Source: Geothermobacter ehrlichii
GTDB taxonomy: Bacteria > Desulfobacterota > Desulfuromonadia > Desulfuromonadales > Geothermobacteraceae
Assembly (NCBI RefSeq): GCF_008124615.1
Contig: NZ_VNIB01000002.1
Coordinates: 1 to 64,000, forward strand
Reading direction: 5' to 3'
Length of the DNA stretch: 64,000 nt
Translations under genes and position numbers: made by a program
In this document: piece by piece, positions 3,275-27,677 of the stretch
Position numbering within the stretch: position 1 is the first letter of the stretch
Layout: each line of letters opens with the position of its first letter
The notes under the pieces: generated by a model
Seen by the model: only the letters and a program-made list of their open reading frames with translations
Told to the model about the DNA's origin: nothing
Database searches by the model: none

Positions 3275-6200
3275 ATGAAGCACCAACCGGGCCGGCGGGG
3301 GAGCGAAAAACGTTATCAGGCCCTCTTCAACAGTACGTTTCAGCTGGTTTTCACGCTCGATCTTCAGGGACGCCTGACCGATGTCAACAGGACCGCCCTG
3401 GGGCTGGTCGGTTGTTCAGCCGAGGAGGTAATTGGCCTGCCCTTTGTCGAAACGCCCTGGTGGGAGCGGGCCGATCTTTCCCGGCAGCGCCTCGCAGAGC
3501 TCATCGCCGCCGCCCGCGGCGAGTTCGTCCGTTTCGACATCTGTATTCGGCATCGGACGAGCGAGCGCTGCATCGATTTTTCCATCAAGCCGATCTTCGT
3601 TGACGACGGGGTCGACTTTCTGCTGGTCGAGGGGCGGGACATCACCGACTACGAGGCGGCCGCGCGGAAAAACATCCAGCTGAAGAATCTCTACGATACC
3701 CTGTCGCGGATCAACGCGACCATCCTGCACGCCCGGGACGAAGAACTGCTGCTGCAGCAGATTTGCGATATCGCCGCTTCACTGGAGGAGGTCCGCCTGG
3801 CCTGGATCGGATTTGTCGAGCCCCTGGACAATCGCGTGCGGCCTGTCGCCTGGGCCGGCGAGGCGCTGGCGGCAATCCAGGATTTTTCGCTGCATCCGGT
3901 CGAGGCGTGTGATGTCGGCGGCAATGCGCTGCAGGCCGACAGCCGCCCCATGGTGATCGACGATCTCGGTGAAGAAAATGTCCTGCGGCCCTTGCACGAC
4001 ATTCTGACGGAACGGCAGTTGCGCTCCCTGGCAGCCTTTCCGCTCTTTCGCGATGGCGAGCCCTGCGGCCTGTTCGTAGTTTATGCTTCCCTGTCCTGCT
4101 ATTTTCGCGGCGGTCGGCTCGGCCTGTTCGAGGAACTGGCGGCCAACACCTCCTTCGCTCTCGGCAATCTGGCCCGGGAAAGAAAGCGGCTGGCCGCGGA
4201 GAGGGCGTTGCGTGAAAGCGAAACCCGCTACCGGGATCTGGTGGAGAATGCCCGCAGCATCATAACGCGCGTATCGCCGACAGGGGAAATTACCTATTTC
4301 AATCGTTATGCCGAAGAAATTTTCGGTTTCGATCGTGAAGAAGTCCTCGATCGCCCGTTGTGGGAGACGATTCTGCCGGAAGTGGAAGAATGCGGCCGCA
4401 ACCTGCGGTCGATGATCGAGGGGATTCTGCATTCTCCCGACGATTACCAGCATAACGTCAATCAGAACGTCTGTCGCGACGGCCGTCGCCTCTGGATCGC
4501 CTGGCACAACCGGGGAATGCGGGACGATCAGGGGAGACTGGTCGAGATTCTCAGTATCGGCCATGACATCACCGAACAGCGTCGCCAGGCCGAACTGATC
4601 GAGCGCAAGGCCAGCGAAGAAGAACTGCGCGGCAATCTGCTGCGGCTGGTTCTCGAGCCCCTGACCATGGAGAAATTCCTGAAGCAGGGACTCAGGCTCA
4701 TTCTCGATACCCCCTGGCTGGGACTGATCCAGCGGGGAGGGGTTTTTCTGGCCGATGCCGCAGCAGAACAGCTGCAGCTCGAAGCCGAGGTCAATCTGCC
4801 GCGGCGGCAGGTCGAGGCCTGCAGGACGGTTCCTTTCGGTACCTGCCTGTGCGGCCGGGTCGCGATGCAGATGCGTCCTTTCATCGGCGAGAACAATCCG
4901 GATATCGATCTGCGGGCCGGGCATCTGGGACTGCACGGACATTGCGTTCTGCCGCTCGTTTCCGGCAAGGAGCTGGTCGGTGTCCTCTGTCTCTACACCG
5001 TTCCCGGTCAGGAGAGTGACGGCCAGATCCGGCGATTGCTGGAGAGCGTGGCCGACATTTTCGCCGTCGGCATCAGCCGCCGGCAGGCGGAAGCCGCCCT
5101 GCGCAAGCAGGAGACCCTGCTGCGCAGGCTGATCGACACCATCCCCCTGCCGATTTTCTACAAGGATACCGACCTGGTCTTCCAGGAATGCAACGATGCT
5201 TTCGCCCGCGAGGTGATCGGCCTGCCGAAAGAGCAGATCGTCGGTCGCAACATGTATGACATCGCCCCTCTCGATCTGGCCCGGTTGTACGAGGATGCCG
5301 ACCGTGATGTCCTGCGGAGCGGCGGTTCCCAGGTCTACCAGACCGAGGTTCGCTATGCCGACGGATCGCGGCGCAGTGTCCTGCTGCACAGGGCGGTACT
5401 GACCCGTGATGACGGTACGCCCTTCGGCATCGTCGGCGCCATTCTCGACCTGTCGGAGCACGAGCGGCTCGAGGAACAACTGCGCCACGCCCAGAAGGTC
5501 GAGGCGCTGGGAACACTCACCGGCGGTGTCGCCCATGATTTCAACAACTTTCTCACCGCAATCATGGGTTATGCCAGCATTCTCAAGTTGAAGTCGCCTC
5601 CGGCGAGCGAACAGGAACAGATCGTCGACCAGATTCTGCAGACCACCGAAAGGGCGTCGAAGCTGACCTATTCGCTGCTCGCCTACAGCCGGCGGCAGGT
5701 CAGCCGGCCGATGCCGCTCGATATCAACCAGGTGGTGTGCGGTCTGGAGAAGATGCTGCGGCGGATTATTCCGGAAACCATCGAATTCGCCACCAGCCTC
5801 TGTGAATCGCCCCTGATGGTGCTGGCCGACGTGTCCCAGCTTGAGCAGGTGCTGATGAACCTGGTCACCAACGCCCGCGATGCCATGCCGTCGGGCGGAC
5901 CCCTGCGCATCGAAACCGGGATGACCGAGGTGGACGAGTCATTCGTCCGTCAGCACGGCTTCGGGGTGCCCGGTCCCTACGTCTACCTGCGGGTCGTCGA
6001 TACCGGCGAGGGAATGAGCCGGGAGGTGATGGAGCGGATTTTCGATCCCTTCTTTACCACCAAGCAGGTCGGCAAGGGGACGGGACTCGGCCTTTCGGTA
6101 AGCTACGGCATCGTGCGTCAGCACCGCGGCGGCATCGTGGTGGAGAGCGAGCAGGGCGGCGGAAGCGTCTTCACCGTCTATCTTCCCCGTACCGAACGGA

Positions 6201-21954: not shown

Positions 21955-22014
21955 GGTGCCTCCCTTTGGGGGTTTTGGGTTGCCGAGAATCGGGCAGGTT
22001 TGCAAAATCACCAA

Positions 22015-22043
22015 AAAATAGCCGTTTGTCGACAGCGGGTCAA
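22015..22043 (-). promoter_or_regulatory. Promoter of upp
   Basis: On the minus strand TTGACC (22043-22038) and TATTTT (22020-22015) are 17 bases apart, giving a leader of about 55 bases before upp. Confidence 0.6.
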
Positions 22044-22122
22044 GCCCGACGAAACCCGGATTTGGCACGAATAATCATGCCGGGATATCCGGAGAGGGGA
22101 CCTGGGCGGGATTTTTTTTTTC

Positions 22123-22151
22123 TTGACAGGAACACCCGTCTTTTTTAAATT
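22123..22151 (+). promoter_or_regulatory. Promoter of fur, overlapped by a Fur box
   Basis: TTGACA (22123-22128) and TAAATT (22146-22151) are 17 bases apart. The -10 element runs into the Fur-type palindrome beginning at 22149, which fits autorepression. Confidence 0.68.
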
Positions 22152-22167
22152 GAAATCCATTTTCAAT
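22149..22167. promoter_or_regulatory. Fur box upstream of fur
   Basis: ATTGAAATCCATTTTCAAT is a 7-5-7 inverted repeat (ATTGAAA/TTTCAAT) ending 15 bases before the fur start. It matches the TTGAAAA-type Fur sites described for Geobacter relatives. Confidence 0.72.
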
Positions 22168-22182
22168 GAATGTCGAGGTGAG

Positions 22183-22632
22183 ATGCGGCAAAGCAAGGAA
22201 CAGTTCAGGCGTTTTCTGTTGCAGAAGGGGCTGAAGTCGACCCGGCAGCGGGAGATTGTGCTCGATGCCTTTTTGCGTTCGTCGACCCATCTTTCCACCG
22301 AAGATCTCTATCAGAAGGTGCGCCGCCGGCATCCGAACATCGGCTATGCGACCGTTCACCGGACCCTGAAGCTTTTTACAGAGTGCGGTCTGGCCGAGGA
22401 GCGCAATTTCGGCGACGGGCAGATCCGTTACGAGTGGACGGGCGACAAGAGCCATCACGATCACCTGGTCTGCATCTCCTGCGGGGTCATCAGCGAATTC
22501 GAGGACAGCCGGATCGAGCAGCTTCAGCGGGATATAGCCGCCCGGCACGGATTCGTCATGACCAGTCACCGCCATGACCTGTACGGTCTGTGCGCCAAGT
22601 GCCAGGAAGAAAAAGTAAGAAAGGGCTGCTGA
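22183..22632 (+). CDS. fur: Fur-family metalloregulator
   Basis: A 149-residue ferric-uptake-type repressor. The N-terminal winged helix includes STRQREIVLDAFL and the recognition region YATVHRTLKLF. The C-terminal half carries the metal sites KSHHDHLVCISCG, EFEDSRIE and the second zinc pair CAKC near the end. A start at 22183 is supported by GAGGTG. With iron it should repress its own gene and feoB, both preceded by matching 19-bp palindromes. PerR or Zur function cannot be excluded by sequence alone, but the feo context favours iron. Confidence 0.87.
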   Translation: MRQSKEQFRRFLLQKGLKSTRQREIVLDAFLRSSTHLSTEDLYQKVRRRHPNIGYATVHRTLKLFTECGLAEERNFGDGQIRYEWTGDKSHHDHLVCISCGVISEFEDSRIEQLQRDIAARHGFVMTSHRHDLYGLCAKCQEEKVRKGC

Positions 22633-22705
22633 AAAAGGCTCGCCCGCGTTGTTGTTCCATGCTCCGCAATCGTCGGTAAATTCCGAACCCGTTTTCTGCC
22701 GGACT

Positions 22706-22724
22706 ATTGAAAACGGTTTTCAAT
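22706..22724. promoter_or_regulatory. Near-perfect Fur box upstream of feoB
   Basis: ATTGAAAACGGTTTTCAAT is a 9-1-9 palindrome, perfect apart from its central base, ending 31 bases before the feoB start. Its outer half-sites equal those of the site upstream of fur, so one regulator probably binds both. Confidence 0.78.
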
Positions 22725-22755
22725 AGAGGGGTGTTTCCCTGACGGAGTCATTTTG

Positions 22756-24732
22756 ATGAAGTGTGCAGTCGAAAACCCGGTACAGGCCGATCAGAACCTT
22801 CGCCGCATCTTTCTGGTCGGCAACCCCAATGTCGGCAAGAGCGTTCTGTTCAATGCCCTGACGGGGGCCTATACCACGGTTTCCAACTATCCCGGCACCA
22901 GCGTCGAGGTCTTTCGCGGCACCTGTGAAATTCATGGCGTCCGCTACGAGGTGCTGGACACGCCGGGCATGTATTCGTTGCTGCCGATCACCGAGGAGGA
23001 GAGGGTGGCGCGTGACATGCTGCTGAACGAGCGGCCGGATGTGGTACTGCACGTCATCGATGCCCGCAACATCGAGCGCATGCTGCCCATGACCCTGCAG
23101 CTGATCGAGGCCGGCCTGCCGGTCATCCTGGTGGTCAACATTCTGGACGAGGCCGAACGGCTCGGTCTGCGTTTCGACCTGCATCTTCTGGAGGAGAAGC
23201 TCGGCATTCCCGTGGTCGGGGCGGCGGTTCGCCGGCGTCGGGGACTGAAGGAGATCCGGGCCGCCATTGTCGGCTTCGATCCGAGCCAGAAGGCGGTCTT
23301 CGGTTACGCCGTCGATCTCGAGCGCGACATTTCACGCGTCACTTCCTGCTTGAGCGGGCAGTACGGTCTGGATGCCCGCGCCATGGCGCTGCTGTTGATG
23401 CAGCGTGACGAGTCGCTGACCGAACTGGTCCGTTCGGTCGAAAAGGACAATTTTGCGGTGGTCGAGGGGGCGATCAACGAAATCGCCTTCGATCGCCGGG
23501 TCGATCTGCATTTGCGCATCAGCCTGGAGCGCAAGCGGGTCTGCAAGGGGGTTCTCGAAGGCGTTATCAGCGAGGACGGACAGAGAGCAATCGACTGGGC
23601 GGGGAAGCTCTCCGAGCTGACCATGAATCCTTGGACGGGGGTTCCCCTGTTGCTGCTGGTGCTCTATTTCGGCCTCTATCAGTTTGTCGGCAACTTCGGT
23701 GCCGGCACCATCGTCGACTTTCTCGAGGGGGGACTGTTTGAAAAAAATCTCAACCCCTGGTTTATCGATTTCTGCCGCACCTATCTGCCTTGGAACTGGC
23801 TGTTTGAGCTGTTGGCCGGCGAGTACGGCATCTTCACCCTGGGCGTCCGTTATGCCGTGGCCATCGTCTTGCCCATCGTCGGCACCTTTTTCATCGCTTT
23901 TTCGGTAATCGAGGACTCTGGCTACTTCCCCCGGCTGGCCATGCTGGTCGACCGGGTCTTCAAGCAGATCGGTCTCAATGGCCGGGCGGTCATTCCCATC
24001 GTCCTCGGCTTTGGCTGCGACACCATGGCGACCATCGTCACCCGAACCTTGGAGACCCGCAGGGAGCGGCTGATCGCCACCCTGCTGCTGGCGCTCGCCA
24101 TCCCCTGCAGCGCCCAGCTCGGCGTTATTCTTGGCTTGCTCTCCGCCGTGCCGGGGGCGCTGGTCATCTGGGGCGGCAGCATGGCCGGACTCTTTCTGTT
24201 CATCGGCTTTCTCTCGGCCCGGCTGATGCCGGGCGAAAAGCCGATGTTCTACATGGAAATTCCGCCCATGCGCCTGCCGCAGCCGCGCAACGTGCTGGTC
24301 AAGACCCTGACCCGGATGCAGTGGTATTTCCTTGAAATCTTCCCCCTGTTCATTCTGGCGTCGGTCATTCTCTGGGCGGGCAAGATGACCGGGGCCTTGC
24401 AATGGCTGGTTGAGGTCATGCAGCCGGTGATGCGTCTGCTGGGATTGCCGGGCCAGACCGCCGCCGCCTTCATCTTTGGCTTTTTCCGGCGGGATTTTGG
24501 TGCCGCTGGTCTCTACGATCTGCAGACGAAGGGGATTCTCTCCCCAGCCCAGTTGACGGTGGCGGCGGTGACGCTGACCCTTTTCGTGCCCTGCGTCGCC
24601 CAGTTTTTGATCATGAAGAAGGAGCGTGGCTGGAAGGCGTCGCTGGCCATTTTCGCGGTTGTGACCCTGCTGGCGTTCAGTGTCGGTTTCGGCCTGAACC
24701 GCTTGCTGCTGCTGACTGGGGTGCCAGGATGA
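22756..24732 (+). CDS. feoB: Ferrous iron transporter FeoB
   Basis: A 658-residue inner-membrane Fe(II) transporter. The N-terminal G domain has G1 GNPNVGKS (22-29), the switch region YTTVSNYPGTSVE, G3 DTPG (68-71) and NILD as G4. The membrane half contains two Gate repeats, with conserved GFGCDT and IPCSAQLG, the latter holding the transport-linked cysteine. The length is near the lower end for FeoB because no extra N-terminal FeoA domain is present. ATG 22756 follows GGAG with nine bases between. The stop overlaps the start of the small Cys-rich gene by two bases. A Fur box lies just upstream. Confidence 0.94.
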   Translation: MKCAVENPVQADQNLRRIFLVGNPNVGKSVLFNALTGAYTTVSNYPGTSVEVFRGTCEIHGVRYEVLDTPGMYSLLPITEEERVARDMLLNERPDVVLHVIDARNIERMLPMTLQLIEAGLPVILVVNILDEAERLGLRFDLHLLEEKLGIPVVGAAVRRRRGLKEIRAAIVGFDPSQKAVFGYAVDLERDISRVTSCLSGQYGLDARAMALLLMQRDESLTELVRSVEKDNFAVVEGAINEIAFDRRVDLHLRISLERKRVCKGVLEGVISEDGQRAIDWAGKLSELTMNPWTGVPLLLLVLYFGLYQFVGNFGAGTIVDFLEGGLFEKNLNPWFIDFCRTYLPWNWLFELLAGEYGIFTLGVRYAVAIVLPIVGTFFIAFSVIEDSGYFPRLAMLVDRVFKQIGLNGRAVIPIVLGFGCDTMATIVTRTLETRRERLIATLLLALAIPCSAQLGVILGLLSAVPGALVIWGGSMAGLFLFIGFLSARLMPGEKPMFYMEIPPMRLPQPRNVLVKTLTRMQWYFLEIFPLFILASVILWAGKMTGALQWLVEVMQPVMRLLGLPGQTAAAFIFGFFRRDFGAAGLYDLQTKGILSPAQLTVAAVTLTLFVPCVAQFLIMKKERGWKASLAIFAVVTLLAFSVGFGLNRLLLLTGVPG

Positions 24733-24899
24733 TCTGCGGTTTCTGTCACCGGGAGATTCCCGAAGAAACGCCCGAGAAGGGTTGCGGCCGCTGCGGAGGC
24801 GGTTGTCGCAAGGTACACTGTCCCTATTGCGGTTACGAAAATCCCCTGCCGTCGCCTCTTCTCGAGCGGTTGCTGGGGCGCAAGGAGAAGAAGAAATGA
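24729..24899 (+). CDS. Small Cys-rich (zinc-ribbon-like) protein coupled to feoB
   Basis: A 56-residue protein, starting MICGFCHREIPEETPEKG and ending LLERLLGRKEKKK. Seven cysteines at 3, 6, 19, 22, 26, 31 and 34 form three CxxC pairs plus one extra, with histidines at 7 and 30: a double zinc-knuckle or rubredoxin-like metal-binding pattern. Its start overlaps the feoB stop (ATGA) and its stop overlaps the ideR start (ATGA), so it is translationally locked into the operon. The basic tail could reach the membrane or RNA. It is not the hydrophobic Firmicute FeoB-associated Cys-rich membrane protein, nor typical FeoC. A role in iron delivery or FeoB control is inference. Confidence 0.72.
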   Translation: MICGFCHREIPEETPEKGCGRCGGGCRKVHCPYCGYENPLPSPLLERLLGRKEKKK

Positions 24900-25543
24900 A
24901 CGTATCGGAAAAGGCGGAAGAGATTCTCGAGACGCTCTGGATCGCCACCGAAGAAGAGGGGGAGAACGCCGCCCATTTCGAGCGGCTGCGCATCGGTTCC
25001 GATGACGAGGGGCTGGAAGAGCTGAAGAAGCTGGCCTATGTTGAGGTCAAAGGGGAGCGGGTCTACCTGCGGCCCGAGGGACGGGAGGAGGCCCGGATGA
25101 CGGTGCGTCGGCATCGCCTGGCCGAGAGGCTGATGATGGACGTTCTCGACTTCAAGGGAGAGGCCGGCAACGCCAAAGCTTGCGAATTTGAGCACCTGCT
25201 GCATCACGGTGTCGATACCAAGCTCTGCACGCTGCTCAACCATCCGACCACCTGCCCGCACGGCAAGCCGATTCCGCCCGGTAGCTGCTGCGAGCAGGCC
25301 CGCCGCGAGGGAACCCCCGGTGTTGTCGCCCTGACTGAGCTGAAGGCGGGCGAGCGGGGCGAGATCGCCTACCTGTCGACGGACAACGAGAAGAAGATGC
25401 AGAAGCTGATGAGCATGGGGGTGTTGCCGGGCAACGAAATCCTGCTCAGCCGGACCTTCCCCAGCTATGTCTTCAAGGTCGGTTATTCGGAGTTTGCCGT
25501 CGACGATGAACTCGCCCGCGAGATTTTTGTCCGCAGGAGCTAG
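24896..25543 (+). CDS. DtxR/IdeR-type metalloregulator with C-terminal FeoA (SH3) domain
   Basis: A 215-residue regulator. Residues 1-75 form a winged helix of the DtxR/MntR type (MNVSEKAEEILETLW, LEELKKLAYVEVKGERV). Residues 80-145 form the dimerisation and metal-binding part (RRHRLAERLMMDVLDF, ACEFEHLLHHGVDTKL, HPTTCPHGKPIP). Residues 150-215 form the FeoA-like SH3 domain (LTELKAGERGEIAYLS, LMSMGVLPGNEILLSR). No separate feoA is present in the operon, so this domain may act on FeoB as well as in repression. The start is the ATGA overlap at 24896. Geobacter has an IdeR-like regulator of this kind. Confidence 0.83.
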   Translation: MNVSEKAEEILETLWIATEEEGENAAHFERLRIGSDDEGLEELKKLAYVEVKGERVYLRPEGREEARMTVRRHRLAERLMMDVLDFKGEAGNAKACEFEHLLHHGVDTKLCTLLNHPTTCPHGKPIPPGSCCEQARREGTPGVVALTELKAGERGEIAYLSTDNEKKMQKLMSMGVLPGNEILLSRTFPSYVFKVGYSEFAVDDELAREIFVRRS

Positions 25544-25685
25544 GCCCCCTCGCCGCCACGGTCTGTCCGGCCGCGCCAAGGTGCTTGAACTGTGCATGAC
25601 GCCGGTGTAAGGTAGGGCGTGATTCACGAGCGACGCGCCCGGGCCCGGCCGGTCGCCAATCATTGCTCCAAGAGGGGTTTGCTTC

Positions 25686-27677
25686 ATGCCTCCTGCCTGG
25701 TTCAGCCGCATCCGTCTGGCTGCCGGCCTCCGCCGTCTTTTTCTGTTTTCACTTGTCGTGCTCTCCTTCTCGCCGTCCCCGGCACAGGCGAAAGATCTTG
25801 TTTTCGGCTATACCCCTGAAGTTTGCGACCTGATTCGGACGACGGATCAGGCCGATGCCCTGGCCGCCTATCTGTCCGAACAGCTGGGACGCAGGGTAGT
25901 GCCCAGGGCGTTCCGCTCGGAAAGGAATCTCCACTACTGGCTCGACAGATTCCGTGAGGTCGATCTGGCGGTGGTCAGCGCCGGTTATCTCTCCCGCAAT
26001 GGCAGGGGGGGGCTCATTCCGGTCGCCGGCTACGTTCGAAAATCGGATGGCCGTGACGGACAGGGTATGGTCGTTGCCAGGCGGGGATTTTCTCCGGCTC
26101 TTTTCGTTCGGACCGGCAATGCCCTTGCCGGGTTGTCGTCCGGCGAGCTGCTCGGTGTCCTCGATGTCCTGACTTTCTATCGGCCCGGCGAAAAGCCGGA
26201 CATGGTCGTGAGGGGCACCGATGAGCACGGCCGGACATCCCGGCCGGCAAACGACAATGGGACAGACCTGCCTGCCGAGGTTGACGTCGGTTTGCCAAGG
26301 GTTGTCATCGATTCTCCGGCCGACCGGGCGGTTCTCAACCGGACGCCCCGGCTTGTCTACGATGCCGACGGGGGAGACGTCGACATTCTGCTCGACGGCA
26401 AAAAGGTTGGGGATGTCGACGAGGCCCTCAAGAAACTTGGCGACGGGCTGCATCGTATCGTGGTCCGGGTGCGTGACGAGCGGGGACAAAGTGCCGAAGA
26501 CATGGTGAGCTTTACTCTCGATCGCACCCCGCCGCAACTGGTTCTGCTCAGTCCGCCGGAGGTGAGCCTCGAGTCGGAGCCGGTCATCGACTGGCGTTGT
26601 GAAGGGAACGGGATCAATGTTTTTCTCGACGGCGAAGCCGTTCAGGTCGCGGCAAAAGAACGTCTGCCGAGTCTGTCCGACGGAACCCATCATCTGCGGC
26701 TGGAATGTGTCGACGCTGCCGGCAATATCGCCTGGCTTGAGCGGGAATTCGTCATCGATACCCTGCCCCCGGTCTTTACCGTTGCCCCCCTGCCTGCGAC
26801 TGTCGGCGGTGGTCGCCTGACCGTGCACGGCACCAGGGAGCCGGGTTCTTTCATCGACCTTGTCACGGTTCCGGGAGCAAGGGTGTCCGAAGCCCGTTAT
26901 CCGGCCGGCGACCGTTGGGAGATCGATGTAGACGGCCTGGAGAATGGTCATTATTTTCTGGTCGTGTCGGCGCGTGATGCGCATGGCAATTCCGGTCGCC
27001 TGCGGTTCGAACTGCAGGTTGAACGGAAGGCTCCCCGCGTTCGCATCCTGGCCCCGGCCGTCGGCCTGACCTACGACAACACTCCGTTGCTGCAGTTTCA
27101 GGTCGAGCGGGGAAAGGTCAGAGTCCTGGTGGATGGCGAGGTGGTCGACAAGTATTCCGGCATGGCTCTTGATCCCCTTGCTCCCGGCGAGCATGTCGTG
27201 CGGGTTGAAGCGGTTGACGATTTCGGCAACCGGGGGTATGCCGAGTGCCATCTGGTGATTGTCGAGTCTGAACCGCCGCCGGTGCGGACGGATACCGGTC
27301 CCTGGTTCGAACTGTTTTCCGCCCGTCTCGACCGGCCGCTGCTCGAAAATGGTTCCGACCGGCCTCTGGTTCTGTCGATCGGCCCGCTCAGCTTCCCCGG
27401 CGAGACGGTCTATATCGAGCAGTGGGCCGACAGCAACGGCAACGGTGTCGCCGATGCAGGCGAACAGGTGATTCGCACCTTCCGTCTGGTCGATGGTCTG
27501 GCATCGCCGAGCTCGCTGGTCCCGGGGGACAGTGACGGTGTCGCCGATGGCCGCATCCGGGCGGAACTTTCGCCGCGGGTTCTCCATGACCGCATGGACG
27601 GGGCGAAGCACTACGTGCTGCTGATCATGGCCGAGCACGACCTGGCCGAGGTTGCCTTCCGGGTGGCGACCGACTAG
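25686..27677 (+). CDS. Exported protein with PhnD-like N-terminus and Ig-like repeats
   Basis: A 663-residue secreted or surface protein. After a signal peptide (about 1-37, ending AQA), residues 38-165 resemble the first lobe of a PhnD-type periplasmic binding protein (LVFGYTPEVCDL, LAAYLSEQLGRRVVPR, VDLAVVSAGYLSR). From about 195 come four Ig-like or bacterial beta-sandwich repeats of 80-100 residues with phrases such as DRTPPQLVLLSPP, IDTLPPVFTV and ERKAPRVRILAP. The C-terminus (about 540-663) holds DSNGNGVADAGE, a calcium-loop-like motif. The start at 25686 is supported by GAGGGG. Role unknown: a binding protein turned into an adhesin or envelope sensor is one reading. Confidence 0.65.
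   Translation: MPPAWFSRIRLAAGLRRLFLFSLVVLSFSPSPAQAKDLVFGYTPEVCDLIRTTDQADALAAYLSEQLGRRVVPRAFRSERNLHYWLDRFREVDLAVVSAGYLSRNGRGGLIPVAGYVRKSDGRDGQGMVVARRGFSPALFVRTGNALAGLSSGELLGVLDVLTFYRPGEKPDMVVRGTDEHGRTSRPANDNGTDLPAEVDVGLPRVVIDSPADRAVLNRTPRLVYDADGGDVDILLDGKKVGDVDEALKKLGDGLHRIVVRVRDERGQSAEDMVSFTLDRTPPQLVLLSPPEVSLESEPVIDWRCEGNGINVFLDGEAVQVAAKERLPSLSDGTHHLRLECVDAAGNIAWLEREFVIDTLPPVFTVAPLPATVGGGRLTVHGTREPGSFIDLVTVPGARVSEARYPAGDRWEIDVDGLENGHYFLVVSARDAHGNSGRLRFELQVERKAPRVRILAPAVGLTYDNTPLLQFQVERGKVRVLVDGEVVDKYSGMALDPLAPGEHVVRVEAVDDFGNRGYAECHLVIVESEPPPVRTDTGPWFELFSARLDRPLLENGSDRPLVLSIGPLSFPGETVYIEQWADSNGNGVADAGEQVIRTFRLVDGLASPSSLVPGDSDGVADGRIRAELSPRVLHDRMDGAKHYVLLIMAEHDLAEVAFRVATD

Follow-up and report, generated by a model that had tools for sequence, protein, structure and literature searches.

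A strongly conserved seven-cysteine protein encoded between feoB and a DtxR-like/FeoA gene in Geothermobacter ehrlichii and its relatives

What is the product of a very short open reading frame doing between the gene for an iron transporter and one that looks like the gene for an iron regulator? The question is raised by a 56-residue frame at 24729-24899 (+) of a 64,000-nucleotide stretch of Geothermobacter ehrlichii DNA (contig NZ_VNIB01000002.1 of assembly GCF_008124615.1, positions 1-64,000, forward strand; hereafter the window), which we call crp as a working name only. Its product, MICGFCHREIPEETPEKGCGRCGGGCRKVHCPYCGYENPLPSPLLERLLGRKEKKK, is a zinc-ribbon-like protein that carries seven cysteines in exactly the spacing claimed by a previous reading of the DNA letters (hereafter the sequence-only reading), C-x2-C-x12-C-x2-C-x3-C-x4-C-x2-C, together with the two histidines (His7 and His30) and the basic tail that it had described. 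The ATGA junctions attributed to the frame are likewise present on either side: at 24729-24732 (+) the start of crp overlaps the stop of feoB, and at 24896-24899 (+) its stop overlaps the start of the next frame, which encodes a DtxR-like domain fused to FeoA (DtxR-FeoA in what follows). The first of these 4-nt overlaps is found in 92 of 106 distinct relatives and the second in 26 of 106, other short gaps or overlaps being common at the crp-to-DtxR-FeoA junction and gaps of more than 100 nt occurring in some.

The same-strand order is fur (22183-22632, +), feoB (22756-24732, +), crp and DtxR-FeoA (24896-25543, +). The first gene of this cluster encodes a Fur family regulator (PF01475, 123.1 bits), and the 658-residue feoB product, of a subclass here called FeoB-1, scores 438.8 bits against TIGR00437 (cut-off 315.65) and also matches PF02421, PF07670 and PF07664. 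Since it is the sole FeoB match of the genome at E≤1e-15, the cluster is probably the main Fe(II) importer of the organism. FUR-box-like palindromes, each with 2 mismatches to the delta-proteobacterial consensus given in the available part of PMC545781, lie upstream of fur (22150-22166) and of feoB (22707-22723); they are the only sites with two or fewer mismatches in the 64 kb, and 100 shuffles yielded none. A promoter-like site runs from 22123 to 22151, where its end touches the first of these palindromes, and no Rfam match was found within 22000-25800. Downstream of the cluster, a 663-aa frame (25686-27677) looks secreted, with an N-terminal part that by eye resembles a substrate-binding protein, followed by Ig-like repeats (PF19077, PF06832).

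So short a frame could have arisen by chance, and this reading was ruled out by the way in which the sequence has changed. Differences between the window crp and its relatives fall 2262, 1631 and 3782 times at codon positions 1, 2 and 3, respectively (112 comparisons); over 41 close pairs the median dN/dS is 0.079 and the maximum 0.255. Because changes are mainly at third positions and the median dN/dS is this low, crp is more than a chance frame; judged by its pattern of substitution, it is a real gene under strong purifying selection. The sequence-only reading had also called it uncatalogued, and indeed the window protein falls in no Pfam or NCBIfam family, while the open-licence literature searched yielded no description of it. 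In the available parts of three papers on this system the small frame goes unnamed, whether the text lists feoB1 - R operons in Geobacter and Desulfuromonas (PMC545781), describes FeoB-1 (PMC2700814) or treats feoB expression only (PMC11934962), and the gene seems to be undescribed so far.

Conservation of the frame and its cysteines, on which the sequence-only reading had staked the gene, was found beside feoB in the order, in the class and in other families of the phylum. A search with the crp protein (E≤0.01) gave matches in 116 of 147 genomes, ranging from the same genus to the same class. We read loci from 107 of these 116 genomes, leaving out nine (among them G038, with a weak match) and taking one of the two copies in G101. 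Of the resulting 109 loci, 107 have feoB immediately before crp and 108 have DtxR-FeoA immediately after it; contig ends account for the three misses. Two genomes (G027 and G049) carry a second crp copy beside a second feoB. Where more than 2.7 kb of upstream sequence is available (71 loci), fur is found there in 67, and a FUR box (two or fewer mismatches, within 700 nt upstream of feoB) is present in 51 of 71 testable loci, as compared with 1 of 1420 mononucleotide-shuffled regions.

The crp profile matched 51 of 395 genomes of the phylum at E≤0.001 (those in G201 and G324 left unread, and that in G305 unread for feoB). Outside the class, 34 of the 36 loci fetched adjoin feoB; L175 and L177, phylum profile matches without feoB, were dropped as false positives. 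In four distant loci (L152, L153, L155 and L160) FeoA follows crp with too little room for a DtxR domain. One further locus (L147 of G318, 3312-5456) joins crp, FeoA and a porin-like sequence in one open 714-aa frame, a fusion that we set aside as weak evidence because in L188 and L189, from relatives of the same order, the genes are separate, and FeoA could be translated from an internal start. The crp protein found no plasmid match, and a scan of genome contigs with crp returned at least five loci, all with Desulfuromonadales-type titles among the matches listed.

The residues kept within the family point to metal binding. None of the seven cysteines varies among 106 distinct proteins of the order and class, in which Met1, Gly20, Pro32, Gly35, Asn38 and Pro39 are nearly invariant, and none varies among 139 distinct sequences once distant relatives are added; since the relatives were collected by similarity, this invariance is partly a selection effect. 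Two loci were retained in the synteny count but left out of the alignment: L111, which runs into a contig end, and L114, whose broken crp frame and fragmented feoB matches indicate either a decayed locus or sequencing errors. The full cysteine pattern that the sequence-only reading proposed to seek beside feoB in relatives held in its cysteines but not in its spacing: the first long spacer is 12 residues in 51 of 139 distinct relatives and 9 to 18 in the rest, so that a fixed x12 was rejected, while x3 between the fourth and fifth cysteines is seen in 99 of 139. At residue 30, which immediately precedes the last CPxC, the alignment column shows His in 96 of the 139 sequences, Cys in 20, Arg in 9, Lys in 9 and Tyr in 5, so that the seven invariant cysteines are joined by His or Cys in 116 of 139 and by other residues in 23. 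The exchange of His for Cys suggests a metal ligand here, and the presence of Arg, Lys or Tyr implies that this ligand is not always needed. The alignment thus suggests one complete and one variable predicted metal site.

Does this protein belong to a family that is already known? Its best profile match is to the double zinc ribbon family (DZR, PF12773), with E 0.0092 and 16.6 bits against a curated cut-off of 27.3, the best DZR E-value among the 105 other members of the crp family scanned being 0.00012. Like DZR proteins, crp has CxxC knuckles, the last of the CPxCGY kind, but it differs in its Gly-rich three-cysteine middle section and falls short of the cut-off, and membership was rejected on that score. 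An AlphaFold2 model of moderate confidence (pLDDT 77.6, pTM 0.54) has two short strands and one C-terminal helix (residues 43-54). Fold searches with this model gave, among the matches listed, only weak ones to assorted small zinc-binding domains, with a RING domain the best in Foldseek (E 0.79) and a ribosomal chain the best by VIA (Z 3.2), and a profile search of PDB sequences returned nothing better than E 0.029 for the family.

The sequence-only reading had further held crp to be distinct from FeoC and from the Firmicute Cys-rich FeoB partner, and profile tests bore out both distinctions. Against PF09012, the profile of the gammaproteobacterial Feo accessory FeoC, the crp protein gave no match at E≤1 (E. 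coli FeoC, as control, E 4.5e-13), the crp family profile met E. coli FeoC with a probability of 1.1% over 5 columns, and crp was rejected as a FeoC member. FeoC is a winged-helix protein; the crp model, at its moderate confidence, shows two short strands and one C-terminal helix. The two are nevertheless alike in setting, since E. coli feoC starts on the last base of feoB and crp likewise overlaps the feoB stop, each at the 3' end of feoB and clustered with feoA; FeoC is also a small protein, often described as having a Cys cluster (PMC8749426, available part).

For the Firmicute partner (PF12669), the crp protein again gave no match at E≤1, and membership was rejected. The Geothermobacter genome itself held no PF12669 match at E≤0.01 in an insensitive search, whose control rang in 1 of 14 genomes and below the cut-off. 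Both proteins are small, Cys-rich and encoded directly downstream of feoB, but crp has, by inspection of its sequence, no long hydrophobic run, and its Cys spacing is unlike the motif given in the available part of PMC8749426, where translation of the PF12669-type partner is treated as an open question. The same paper deals with small Cys-rich partners of FeoB in other groups; its feo loci were found with the Pfam profiles of FeoA and FeoC, a survey that, as far as the method is given there, we would expect to miss crp. We place crp as one more family of small, Cys-rich partners of FeoB, one that has no profile in the libraries searched. In four genomes (loci L263, L264, L265 and L267, at about nt 163-340) a different small Cys-rich, zinc-ribbon-like frame of 53 aa (CxxC...CPRC...CxGCxxCGxCK) directly follows another FeoB subclass, possibly an independent solution to the same need.

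The gene that follows crp bears on what crp might do. It encodes 215 residues, in which a DtxR-like metal-binding and dimerisation domain (PF02742) is fused to FeoA (PF04023), both over their cut-offs, behind a reduced, acidic, winged-helix-like N-terminal domain. The two Pfam domains are matched by all 74 DtxR-FeoA proteins scanned, our own choice from 134 distinct ones; at E≤0.01 no DtxR-type DNA-binding domain was listed in these 74 relatives, one of which matches the generic winged-helix family PF14947 (E 0.0044). Over residues 1-62 the mean net charge in the 134 distinct relatives is -7.7 (range -12 to 0). His73, Glu77, Cys96, Glu99 and His100, which we take to correspond to the metal ligands of DtxR, are invariant. 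A model of the protein (pLDDT 91.5) keeps a reduced winged-helix-like outline, and in Foldseek its best matches are IdeR chains, with FeoA 3e19 for the C-terminal part. The name ideR given to this gene in the sequence-only reading thus fits in that the DtxR metal domain is kept and is open to doubt in that no DtxR-type DNA-binding domain is recognised in the 74 relatives at that threshold; like IdeR and DtxR, the protein has the metal-binding and dimerisation domain, but its N-terminus is acidic. The label may be misleading for 24896-25543, and, from domain content and charge, DNA binding has probably been lost. The idea that the acidic N-domain arose together with crp was rejected, since proteins from loci with crp (mean net charge -7.8, n=15) and from loci without it (mean -8.1, n=21) are about equally acidic.

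We then asked how closely crp is tied to FeoB. Among the 31 of 147 genomes without crp, the profile adds one weak match only (G089, E 0.0033), which we took as chance, its locus being without feoB or DtxR-FeoA matches. DtxR-FeoA is matched in 2 of these 31 genomes: in one the contig ends 72 nt upstream; the other (L185:863-2039) has fur directly before DtxR-FeoA and neither feoB nor crp, as if these two had been lost together. Some FeoB (E≤1e-20) is present in 23 of the 31 non-carriers, mostly at 30-35% identity, which implies that crp belongs to one FeoB subclass and not to FeoB generally. Closer matches are few among the non-carriers: a 65% FeoB match in G133 is cut by a contig end, so that crp is not judgeable there, FeoB pieces in G035, G047 and G048 are 40-46% identical, and in G044 what follows a 42% FeoB is a CxxC piece of only 21 residues (E 0.003), rejected by the extended profile.

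A search for FeoB of the kind found in the window (E≤1e-85) gave matches in 111 of the 395 phylum genomes. Sixty further FeoB loci that had lacked a crp match, the part of these FeoB matches that was fetched, were read with the extended profile, which finds crp directly downstream in 25 of them; the remaining 35, of which L257 (contig end) and L215 (incomplete FeoB) are not judgeable, are without crp, and 25 of the 35 still have DtxR-FeoA. Plasmid pPRO1 of Pelobacter propionicus (L191:2953-5644) also carries feoB and DtxR-FeoA without crp, near genes for a heavy-metal P-type ATPase and a nickel transporter. From these 25 loci and the one plasmid it follows that crp is not needed by every such transporter. 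On a FeoB tree of 83 rows (of the quick kind, with hand-chosen rows and several long branches) the crp label needs 7 changes, as compared with a mean of 18.8 after shuffling (none of 500 as low), and the clade that holds the window has crp in 46 of 47 rows, the exception being the Pelobacter plasmid. Given its reach across the phylum and these label counts, crp seems to be old in the phylum, to have been passed on together with this FeoB, and to be lost or missing in certain lines.

What, then, does crp do? Its position, co-inheritance and thiol content make a FeoB accessory acting with FeoA the most likely answer, and we tentatively favour, at somewhat less than an even chance, a small, soluble, cytosolic metal-binding protein that works with DtxR-FeoA in the slot that FeoC fills elsewhere. 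On this proposal crp would fold as a zinc-ribbon-like unit in which Cys3 and Cys6 together with Cys31 and Cys34 would form one Cys4 site for Zn or Fe, while Cys19, Cys22 and Cys26 would make up another, more exposed site whose fourth ligand varies (His30 here, Cys in distant relatives). The basic C-terminal helix might dock the protein on FeoB or the membrane, and crp and the metal-sensing DtxR-FeoA would together set FeoB activity or stability by the metal state of the cytosol. The slot would be that of enterobacterial FeoC in function, homology to FeoC not being implied. Weighing against this proposal are the loci that have such a FeoB but no crp, the Arg, Lys or Tyr at the proposed eighth ligand in 23 of 139 sequences, and the moderate model with its weak fold matches. 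Elsewhere, Klebsiella NFeoB is known to bind its FeoC, and FeoA interacts with the FeoB G-domain, reportedly stabilising the GTP form in Bacteroides fragilis (both from the available part of PMC8980893).

The strongest rival holds that crp is a structural zinc protein, with Zn held permanently, that serves without any sensing as an assembly or stability factor, either as an adaptor between FeoB and DtxR-FeoA or as protection against proteolysis. We consider it unlikely but a serious contender. The sub-threshold matches to zinc-ribbon and double-zinc-ribbon families, DZR included, speak for it, as does the His/Cys exchange at residue 30, such exchange being usual at structural Zn sites. Protection of this kind is reported for Salmonella FeoC, which shields FeoB from proteolysis (PMC8749426, available part). 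The Arg, Lys or Tyr found at the eighth ligand in 23 of 139 sequences, however, fits a second complete Zn site poorly.

That crp is an iron chaperone, taking Fe(II) at the cytosolic exit of FeoB and handing it to client proteins, would suit a thiol-rich, basic protein encoded directly after feoB, but we think it quite improbable: there are loci with FeoB and DtxR-FeoA but without crp, the loci read show no linked client gene, and four-thiolate sites usually hold their metal tightly. A redox sensor, in which the exposed three-Cys cluster (Cys19-x2-Cys22-x3-Cys26, with its variable fourth ligand) responds to oxidation by forming a disulfide or losing an Fe-S cluster and so shuts FeoB off, has that three-Cys cluster in its favour; we regard it as very unlikely, and hold to be just as doubtful the associated idea that it would guard anaerobes from iron overload on exposure to air. 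It is a rival of detail to the accessory reading. Finally, that the frame serves only to couple feoB translation to the DtxR-FeoA gene, the peptide itself being idle, accords with the overlapping ATGA junctions of the window but is hardly credible, since selection acts on the amino acid sequence, as the invariant cysteines and low median dN/dS attest, and several relatives keep the protein across a downstream gap of more than 100 nt.

The accessory reading can be carried one step further, to a post-translational iron thermostat, in which a former DNA-binding iron repressor, no longer recognising DNA and fused to FeoA, would sense cytosolic iron on the transporter, and its seven-cysteine partner, responsive to metal or redox state, would complete the FeoB switch. 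This extension is speculative, and we would not expect it to hold in full; if true, an iron-sensor module would have moved from gene control to the direct gating of a transporter. The roles of FeoA, FeoC and the small Cys-rich FeoB partners are described as unclear in the available part of PMC8749426, and crp adds to them a strongly conserved family in a group that includes iron-reducing bacteria, suggesting that FeoB was given a small, thiol-rich partner in several lineages. The neighbouring gene carries a warning: despite its annotation as a metal-dependent regulator, its product may not act on DNA. Why FeoB needs a thiol-rich partner is a question that can be put to the test in relatives open to genetics, Geobacter among them.
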